DNA from: Bacillota bacterium
Lineage (GTDB): Bacteria; Bacillota; Dethiobacteria; Dethiobacterales; Dethiobacteraceae
Assembly: GCA_012521405.1 (NCBI GenBank)
Contig: JAAYMK010000061.1
Span: forward strand, 1 to 35,132
Length of the DNA stretch: 35,132 nucleotides
Direction: 5' to 3'
Shown here: piece after piece, positions 29,361 to 33,654 of the stretch
Layout of the letters: each line of letters starts with the position of its first letter
How positions within the stretch are numbered: the stretch's first letter is position 1
Notes under the pieces: model-generated
Database searches by the model: none
Told to the model about the DNA's origin: nothing
Seen by the model: only the letters and a program-made list of their open reading frames with translations
Position numbers and translations under genes: made by a program

Positions 29361-29813
29361 TTATATTTCCTCCAGAATAACTTCCAACATGGAAATCAGC
29401 ACTTTAGTACAGGCATGTTCATGCTGAAACGGGTCCTGTGACAGTACCGCCCTCATTAAATTGCTCTCACGCCGTGTTATAAGTTTAGATTCAGCTAAAT
29501 TAGTCACAAAATCCAACGCCTCACATCTGGAGATACCTTTATTTAATTTTTGTAAAGCAGTTAACACTTTTGCCACTTTTTCCCGATCTAAATCTAACCG
29601 TTTAATGCGCAAAAAGCCGCCGCCACCACGGCGGCTTTCAATTAAATAGCCGCGTTCAGTGGTAAAACGTGTAGAAAGCACATAATTAATCTGTGACGGC
29701 ACACACTGGAAGCGTTCGGCCAATTCCTTACGCTGTAATACAAGTGTGGCATTGGGACTGGCATCCAAGAGCCTATTAATGTAAGCTTCAATTAAATCAG
29801 CTAAATTACTCAT
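29361..29813 (-). CDS. ctsR: Class III heat-shock repressor CtsR
   Basis: CtsR is the dimeric repressor of clp genes. The 150-aa protein has the winged HTH (RKELAERFQCVPSQINYVLSTRF) and the glycine-rich wing RRGGGGFLRI, which is the temperature sensor in Bacillus. The C-terminal domain (about 75-150) carries the McsB/ClpC contact region. ATG 29813 has GAGGG upstream at good spacing. First gene of ctsR-mcsA-mcsB-clpC. Two operator-like heptad pairs lie in front of it, so the operon is autoregulated. Confidence 0.97.
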   Translation of the reverse strand: MSNLADLIEAYINRLLDASPNATLVLQRKELAERFQCVPSQINYVLSTRFTTERGYLIESRRGGGGFLRIKRLDLDREKVAKVLTALQKLNKGISRCEALDFVTNLAESKLITRRESNLMRAVLSQDPFQHEHACTKVLISMLEVILEEI

Positions 29814-29829
29814 GCGGATCCCTCGTTTG

Positions 29830-29846
29830 TTTGACCTTTACTGACT
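29830..29846 (-). promoter_or_regulatory. CtsR operator, promoter-proximal
   Basis: On the minus strand AGTCAGT-AAA-GGTCAAA: the second heptad is perfect and the first differs at two positions from the CtsR consensus of tandem GGTCAAA heptads with a 3-nt gap. It sits just downstream of the -10 box, where bound CtsR would block transcription. Confidence 0.75.
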
Positions 29847-29849
29847 AAT

Positions 29850-29878
29850 ATTATAGCTGATTATAACTTTAATTTCAA
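29850..29878 (-). promoter_or_regulatory. Sigma-A promoter of ctsR-mcsA-mcsB-clpC
   Basis: On the minus strand TTGAAA (29873-29878) and TATAAT (29850-29855) are separated by 17 nt, a near-consensus sigma-A promoter about 40 nt before the ctsR start codon. It is flanked by CtsR operator-like sequences. Confidence 0.88.
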
Positions 29879-29907
29879 TACCTAAAAATTCCTTTAGCGG
29901 CGTATAA

Positions 29908-29924
29908 TTTGACCTTTATCGACC
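29908..29924 (-). promoter_or_regulatory. CtsR operator-like sequence, distal
   Basis: On the minus strand GGTCGAT-AAA-GGTCAAA, again with a perfect second heptad and the same AAA spacer. It lies 30 nt upstream of the -35 box, so it may aid cooperative repression or control a second promoter further upstream. Confidence 0.6.
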
Positions 29925-30120
29925 ATTATCTATAGTTTGTGCAAACTTTTGCTTTTTTATTTTTAGTTTTTACTCTCTTTTACAACCTCATGCTTCTGTC
30001 CGTTTACAGGTAAAATACTGCCAAAACCCTTATAAATAGTATAAGATGACAGGGCATGGGAAAAACTTAAAAATAACTTAAAAAATTTCAATTTGTAAAA
30101 ATTCTTCTTATTTGTACCAG

Positions 30121-30149
30121 ACATATTAACAACAAAAATGCGCACACTA
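30121..30149 (+). promoter_or_regulatory. Possible forespore (sigma-G/F-like) promoter
   Basis: ACATA (30121-30125) and CACACTA (30143-30149) are 17 nt apart. This is one base off the sigma-G -35 core GNATR and one base off the -10 core CATACTA. The match is suggestive only; it precedes a small basic ORF with spore-protein-like composition. Confidence 0.25.
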
Positions 30150-30193
30150 TGATTGAAGTTCCAATCCCATAAAAGGAGAGTGTGGCAAAACAC

Positions 30194-30361
30194 ATGGCGA
30201 AAAAAAATAAACAAAACCGCAATAAAAGCCGAAATCGCCTGGGTGAGAACTTCCAAGCCAAGGATATAAATGTTGAGTTTGCCGGGGAAATCGCCGGCGA
30301 CAAACAAAAAAACATCCGGGATAGCAAAAACCGCCGCAAGCAAAATGGTGGGGGCTGCTAA
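30194..30361 (+). CDS. Small basic 55-aa protein, possibly a small spore protein
   Basis: The ORF starts MAKKNKQNRNKSRNRLGENF and ends KNRRKQNGGGC. It is rich in N, K, R and Q, with a short VEFAGEIAGD segment, a composition and EFA-type motif like clostridial small acid-soluble spore proteins, but I cannot assign a known SASP type. AAAAGGAG lies 15 nt before the ATG and 3 nt before an in-frame GTG at 30182, so either start is possible and translation may be inefficient. A strong hairpin terminator 11 nt after the stop, in the correct strand, supports it as a real transcript. It is a single plus-strand gene between ctsR and ku, both on the minus strand. Confidence 0.6.
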   Translation: MAKKNKQNRNKSRNRLGENFQAKDINVEFAGEIAGDKQKNIRDSKNRRKQNGGGC

Positions 30362-30372
30362 ACAAACTTTTT

Positions 30373-30402
30373 AAGCGGAAACACATGTTTCCGCTTATTT
30401 TT
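30373..30402 (+). terminator. Terminator of the 55-aa gene
   Basis: A perfect 10-bp stem AAGCGGAAAC/GTTTCCGCTT (30373-30382 with 30387-30396) with a 4-nt loop is followed by ATTTTT on the plus strand. It also sits 6 nt after the ku stop, so it may stop both convergent transcripts. Confidence 0.85.
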
Positions 30403-32829: not shown

Positions 32830-33654
32830 TTAAATTTCCGCAAAAGGCAATTCTAAGATAATCTGTTCACTAATACTGCCGTCTTTTGCATTTTGCGTAA
32901 ATAACACCAACTGCAAAGGTGATCCTACAGGTAAATTTTCCTCAATCTTTAGCTCGAGGACAAAGTATTTCCAATCACCCATGGCTGCAGTACTATAACC
33001 GGCAACTAATGTTTTCCCAAAACTATCCGTTAATTTATATTGGAAATTCCCCTCAACAACATTGGCTATCCCCTCGACGGTAAACCTGCGTCCTACTTGC
33101 GTTCCCGGTGGCGGCGAAAAAATTTTAATCCCATCTGCTTGTGCCACTATCGGTTGTAGGTAGTCAATTTCCAATAATTGCGGCACGTACTCCTCGGCTC
33201 CGTGGACAACAAATTTTACCGGCAGCCCTGTGGCATCAATGCTTTCCAAAGCATACGGATAAGTAATTAAAGTCTCCGCATTCTCGGTCTCTTGTGGTTG
33301 CCTGAAAGTGACATGGACCTCAACATGATCTTCTAATTTTTCAATTTCTGTAATCTCTACACTATACCCACTGCTTTTTTTTCTGCCATACGTAACTAAA
33401 AAGTACTGTTTCCCCGCCAGCTCGCGACTTTGCGCTAAAAAAATATCTTTTGAATTTTCTATCCACTCCTCCAGCTCATCTTCCACTGTTTTTACCTCGG
33501 TTTCCGCCTCTGCTGCATCCATTATTTCTAAAGCATCCTCATTTGTCTGTGCCGGCACATCCGAAAGGTTATTTTCCCGGGAACAGGCTGTAGCAATGCT
33601 GCTTAGCACTATTATCAATAATATACCAATAAGCTTGCATGAAAACTTGTACAT
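32830..33654 (-). CDS. Lipoprotein with PrcB-like and Gmad2 domains
   Basis: The 274-aa exported protein has a lipoprotein signal (residues 1-23, hydrophobic core then SSIATAC with Cys24). An acidic linker (about 30-70) follows. A PrcB_C-like domain lies at about 80-150 (GKQYFLVTYGRKKSSGYSV, ITEIEKLEDHVEVHVTFRQ). A Gmad2 immunoglobulin-like domain lies at about 173-272 (IKIFSPPPGTQVGRRFTVEG, MGDWKYF, SISEQIILELPF). Gmad2 is found with GerM and related spore-germination or cell-envelope proteins; PrcB-type domains accompany surface proteases. Together they suggest an envelope protein acting outside the membrane. ATG 33654 has AAGGTG upstream. It is a single gene downstream of ddh. Confidence 0.8.
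   Translation of the reverse strand: MYKFSCKLIGILLIIVLSSIATACSRENNLSDVPAQTNEDALEIMDAAEAETEVKTVEDELEEWIENSKDIFLAQSRELAGKQYFLVTYGRKKSSGYSVEITEIEKLEDHVEVHVTFRQPQETENAETLITYPYALESIDATGLPVKFVVHGAEEYVPQLLEIDYLQPIVAQADGIKIFSPPPGTQVGRRFTVEGIANVVEGNFQYKLTDSFGKTLVAGYSTAAMGDWKYFVLELKIEENLPVGSPLQLVLFTQNAKDGSISEQIILELPFAEI

Follow-up and report, generated by a model that had tools for sequence, protein, structure and literature searches.

The window, a stretch of 35,132 nucleotides of the host genome (G000), contains on its forward strand an open reading frame for 55 residues (positions 30194 to 30361, ATG to TAA), which belongs to a lineage-restricted family of small proteins. It is flanked upstream by the divergent gene for CtsR (29361 to 29813, reverse strand), the first of a ctsR-mcsA-mcsB-clpC operon in which mcsA, mcsB and clpC are presumed identifications of ours, and downstream by the convergent gene for Ku (TIGR02772; 30408 to 31244, reverse strand). 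A ribosome-binding site, AAAAGGAG, lies at 30171 to 30178 on the forward strand. With an in-frame GTG at 30182 as alternative start the protein would have 59 residues, and the ATG at 30194 appears to be the best-placed start, because it is aligned with the starts of the relatives described below. The basic, N/K/R/Q-rich frame pointed out in an earlier note on this DNA is indeed present, with 15 Lys and Arg, 6 Asp and Glu, 13 Asn and Gln and a pI of 10.5. The protein has no Pfam or NCBIfam match at E ≤ 10 and no match among PDB sequences, and Rfam gave nothing above gathering scores in the whole window. The AlphaFold model of the protein, of low confidence (mean pLDDT 61.6, pTM 0.13), has no secondary structure, and is weakly consistent with disorder.

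To define the family, 99 relatives were searched, which gave a clear match in the same genus (71% similarity) and weak matches in five genomes of the same family, all having in common the frame, a VEFAxE core and a lysine-rich tail. Matches in G045, G027 and G023 and at a second place in G003 (E 0.09 to 0.46) were taken as chance. A profile built from seven members, i.e. these relatives and the host, found matches in 17 of the 19 genomes of the host's family, covering ten genera (E ≤ 3.3e-4), ten of them outside the profile, and the frame is open in all 17 members. With a profile of the 17 members, which these match by construction, no further family genome was added; a second match in G011 (E 0.007), in a low-complexity frame of 208 residues, was judged to be chance. 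In the rest of the class (78 genomes) there was no convincing match, as those outside the family have E ≥ 0.099 with the seven-member profile and E ≥ 0.2 with the 17-member one. Within a phylum sample of 398 genomes, convincing matches were confined to five genomes of the family; this search also returned five matches outside the family (E 0.011 to 0.08), two of them within longer frames (457 and 530 residues). The other three were translated: L149 looks like a chance frame, while L150, with NIEFVDEP at its C-terminus, is presumably a small protein already known. The third, in G098 from another family of the phylum, is a basic 66-residue frame with NVEFAEEA (L151:566-763, forward strand), located 3' of another small frame and having no Pfam match. 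A separate phylum search gave a match inside a 1035-residue frame of G210 (E 0.0065).

Two genomes of the family have no match. In G002 the contig ends inside ctsR, whereas in G014 the ctsR region is assembled and the gene is absent there, with no profile match anywhere in the genome. The six named loci with relatives all come from MAGs. A literature search, which had limited reach into subscription papers, found nothing on the family.

The 17 members have 53 to 62 residues, a pI of 8.5 to 10.5 and one to four cysteines. In eight hand-chosen close pairs, which are not all independent, dS exceeds dN per site in every case; dN/dS is 0.11 to 0.37 in seven of them, the exception being G003/G012, where dS is saturated. 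Conservation of the frame in close relatives was the check proposed in the earlier note. Since the frame is kept in 17 of the 19 family genomes and dN/dS is below 0.4, it is practically certain, on this comparative evidence, that the 55-residue frame is a conserved protein-coding gene.

An intrinsic terminator follows the gene on the forward strand (30372 to 30402). It is perfect, as claimed, with an 11-bp stem (30372 to 30397, with a 4-nt loop) and a tail with five consecutive T, and it starts 10 nt past the stop codon, not 11 as previously given; the T run is found only on the forward-strand side of the stem. A perfect stem of 10 to 12 bp is present after the stop codon in 16 of the 17 members, and one of 6 bp in G012. 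Because the unbroken T5 is restricted to G000 and G001, and T-rich tails to G003 and G007, the stem-loop of the other members could represent a different type of terminator, or one shared with the convergent gene.

Upstream of the gene we found the pair that had been likened to sigma-G/F promoters, ACATA (30121 to 30125) and CACACTA (30143 to 30149) separated by 17 nt on the forward strand, and just before it a GTACCAG (30114 to 30120, forward strand), which corresponds to a TTCCAG-like block that most relatives have directly before the −35, as read by eye. For comparison we used the alpha/beta SASP genes of the class: 31 of the 32 that were read, from 30 loci of which nine are in the host's family, are preceded by G[TC]AT[AG]-N17/18-NANAHTA. 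A matrix trained on these 31 has its best common position in the 17 members at a site ending 32 to 44 nt before the start (one base nearer in G012), with a mean of 7.7 bits, against a best mean of 0.13 bits in 200 shuffled sets, which ignore shared ancestry; four of the 17 members belong to one genus. In single scans no more than 7 of the 17 members have a significant site (p ≤ 0.05) at this position, the best site is elsewhere in G000, G001, G016 and G018 (in G000 and G001 a site about 106 nt upstream of the ribosome-binding site ranks higher), and the opposite strand outscores the gene strand in G010, G005 and G013. The proposed sigma-G/F likeness thus stands as regards the matrix peak at one position across the family, but in the host itself another site scores higher, and the ACATA/CACACTA pair is supported mainly by its conserved position. 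In C. difficile the −10 side is reported to have a G in sigma-F promoters and an A in those of sigma-G (PMC3789822); the promoter-like sites of the family do not decide between the two. From these promoter comparisons, expression of the gene in the forespore is likely.

The most conserved part of the protein is the core. Over the 17 members the only invariant columns are the start residue, V27, E28, F29, A30 and E32, and TDSVEFAxEPF is found in 11 of them; outside the core the members are rich in Lys, Arg and Asn and variable. In the host the core reads VEFAGE (codons at 30272 to 30289, forward strand), and resembles the site of the germination protease, GPR. By motif match, each of the 17 members has exactly one GPR-type site (VEFAxE). 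Cleavage is predicted between E28 and F29, the position expected from the SASP literature. The alpha/beta SASPs of the same organisms carry E-[IVL]-A-x-E-[LI]-G, and those of the host contain five such sites in four genes, three of which have a single site (YEIANELG, LEIAEELG and EELAAELG) and the fourth two (MEIATELG and HEIAAELG). An alpha/beta SASP frame of 110 residues in the host (L154, C120:20527-20859) has two E-I-A-x-E-L-G sites. The conserved EIA sequence of SASPs is described as cut by GPR (PMC8452069). The EFAxE codon pattern occurs at 11 places in the whole host genome, compared with one for a reversed control pattern, and the other ten are in frames longer than 200 residues or of 18 and 24 residues, none being in a frame of 30 to 130 residues.

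The protease itself was found in 16 of the 19 family genomes, including 15 of the 17 members (in the host as a 352-residue frame on C91), and alpha/beta SASP genes in all 19, thus in every member. Of the 16 family loci that were read, 15 have RTDLAIEA, which we take to be an autoprocessing type of site, close to the N-terminus of GPR; the readout of the 16th ends before that point. Of the 19 genomes, G010, G014 and G018 had no gpr match, possibly due to incomplete MAGs in the case of G010 and G018, which have the family gene; G014 lacks a match to both. On the basis of the core, the 55-residue protein is probably a GPR substrate. The GPR-like core, which does not figure in the earlier note, is further support for a spore protein, and the new small spore protein suggested there appears well supported by comparison, given the conserved frame, the forespore-type promoter position and the gpr and SASP genes of the host.

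The basic character of the members, their Lys/Asn richness and the lack of predicted secondary structure would also be expected of a vegetative or stress peptide that binds nucleic acid or ribosomes and resembles a GPR substrate by coincidence. Against such a peptide, VEFAxE is the most conserved part and the flanking basic parts are not, and the promoter position resembles that of SASP genes; this explanation seems unlikely. A spore coat or crust protein made in the mother cell under sigma-E or sigma-K, with its cysteines and C-terminal Cys forming coat disulfides, is in our judgement rather improbable. Cys is indeed the last or second to last residue in 12 of the 17 members, and the −35 reads ACATATT in G000, G001 and G007, which resembles a sigma-E element. 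The spacer of sigma-E promoters is shorter, however, and the −35/−10 pair of the family, with its spacing of 17 to 18 nt, fits the SASP-gene matrix, which was the only matrix compared; moreover, it is not obvious what a GPR-like core would do in a coat protein.

The commonest neighbour of the family gene is the divergent ctsR operon (ctsR-mcsA-mcsB-clpC), seen in 12 of the 17 members, with clpC or mcsB beyond the stretch in some. This arrangement would suit a small protein acting as adaptor or anti-adaptor in the CtsR-McsA/B-ClpC proteolytic system, but the family gene persists in G013 and G018, where ctsR is on another contig, ctsR is missing from the 16 kb examined in G005 and G016, the gene is equipped with a promoter-like pair and a stem-loop of its own, and its core resembles a GPR site, all of which make an adaptor very improbable. 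Finally, a chance frame, or a leader or antisense feature, which the short length and the lack of a family-model match might suggest, is refuted as far as sequence allows by the conservation in 17 genomes and the low dN/dS, and has next to no chance of being correct. Between ctsR and the gene, at 29825 to 29930, we noted by eye two GGTCAAA sites upstream of ctsR and apart from the promoter of the small gene, which resemble the consensus of CtsR boxes.

On the other side, Ku is found on the same stretch, in convergent orientation, in 10 of the 17 members, of which G000 and G001 are the only ones where the two genes are immediate neighbours. Genes for a LigD ligase and a LigD polymerase separate it from the family gene in G003, G006, G007, G009, G010, G011 and G012, five of which also have an M24 peptidase in between (Pfam was run on the proteins of G003 and G007, and the others were read by eye), and unrelated genes do so in G008. 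In the remaining seven members Ku is absent from the stretch examined, some of them being near contig ends. The adjacency to Ku had been taken to suggest a role in the spore, an argument that is weak given that the two genes are directly adjacent in two genomes only and are convergent there. As Ku is adjacent in only two members and other genes lie between elsewhere, its link to the family is, from this gene order, a loose neighbourhood with repair genes, neither an operon nor a fixed partnership. At L101 and L105, between the family gene and Ku, the ligase and the primase-polymerase of LigD are encoded by separate genes, which are missing there in G000 and G001. Further along the window (32830 to 33654, reverse strand) there is a 274-residue frame, lipoprotein-like by eye, with Gmad2 (spore germination Ig-like) and PrcB_C domains.

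We compared the family with the known small spore proteins. Pfam searches of the 17 members at E ≤ 10 gave no match to alpha/beta SASPs (PF00269), gamma SASPs (PF04259), SspO or YfhD (PF14151); two unrelated models matched one member each (E 0.79 and 2.4). An NCBIfam cysteine-rich repeat model matched one member (E 0.0067). PF04259 had no match over its cut-off in 97 genomes of the class, with a B. subtilis control over the cut-off, and PF14151, run over 20 genomes, had none in the host and a single match below the cut-off elsewhere in G004 (E 0.65).

The alpha/beta SASPs (PF00269, with five matches in four host genes) occur in the same genomes and have a similar GPR-site core and promoter, but no resemblance was seen beyond the core, which is followed by proline or isoleucine-alanine in the family and by leucine/isoleucine-glycine in the SASPs. 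Unlike the family, with its one to four cysteines, Bacillus SASPs have few or none. The gamma-type SASP of Bacilli (SspE, PF04259) is likewise small, N/K/Q-rich and preceded by a promoter of forespore type, and its GPR sites, EFASE, are very like EFAxE. These sites are repeated in gamma-type SASPs, whereas the family has one site per member without repeats, and contains Cys. The minor SASPs of Bacilli (SspO) and YfhD (PF14151) are also short basic proteins, with EFAxE/EFSxE-like stretches. A 109-residue protein of G003 (L132:1501-1827, reverse strand, C53), with no Pfam match, has three repeats, TMEFADTT, TVEFADEQ and TVEFIDPE, which are reminiscent of those of gamma SASPs; a relative was seen in a 57-residue frame of G009 (L133), and G017 has a weak one.

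Taken together, we infer that the gene encodes a small, basic and intrinsically disordered spore-core protein. Sigma-G or sigma-F would direct its transcription in the forespore, and the product would be stored in the dormant spore. During germination GPR would cut it once, between E28 and F29 of VEFAGE, into halves of some 27 residues each, which would then be degraded. Its role would resemble that of a minor or gamma-like SASP, as a spore-core filler that binds nucleic acids loosely and serves as an amino-acid reserve. We regard this SASP-like role as reasonably likely. A stronger version, in which the family is a separate class of GPR-cleaved spore proteins of this Bacillota lineage that replaces the gamma-type SASP, with its recurrent cysteines forming reversible disulfides in the dry core that are undone at germination as GPR cuts the one site, is unlikely.

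Gamma-type SASPs, and most of the minor ones, are reportedly absent from clostridia (PMC3533761, PMC8452069), and yfhD and sspO are reported from most bacilli and from no clostridia (PMC3533761). The conservation of this small family, with its GPR-like core, points to lineage-specific spore-core proteins outside the current family models. If this is true, such proteins could be found systematically, as short open reading frames that combine a GPR-type site with a forespore promoter.
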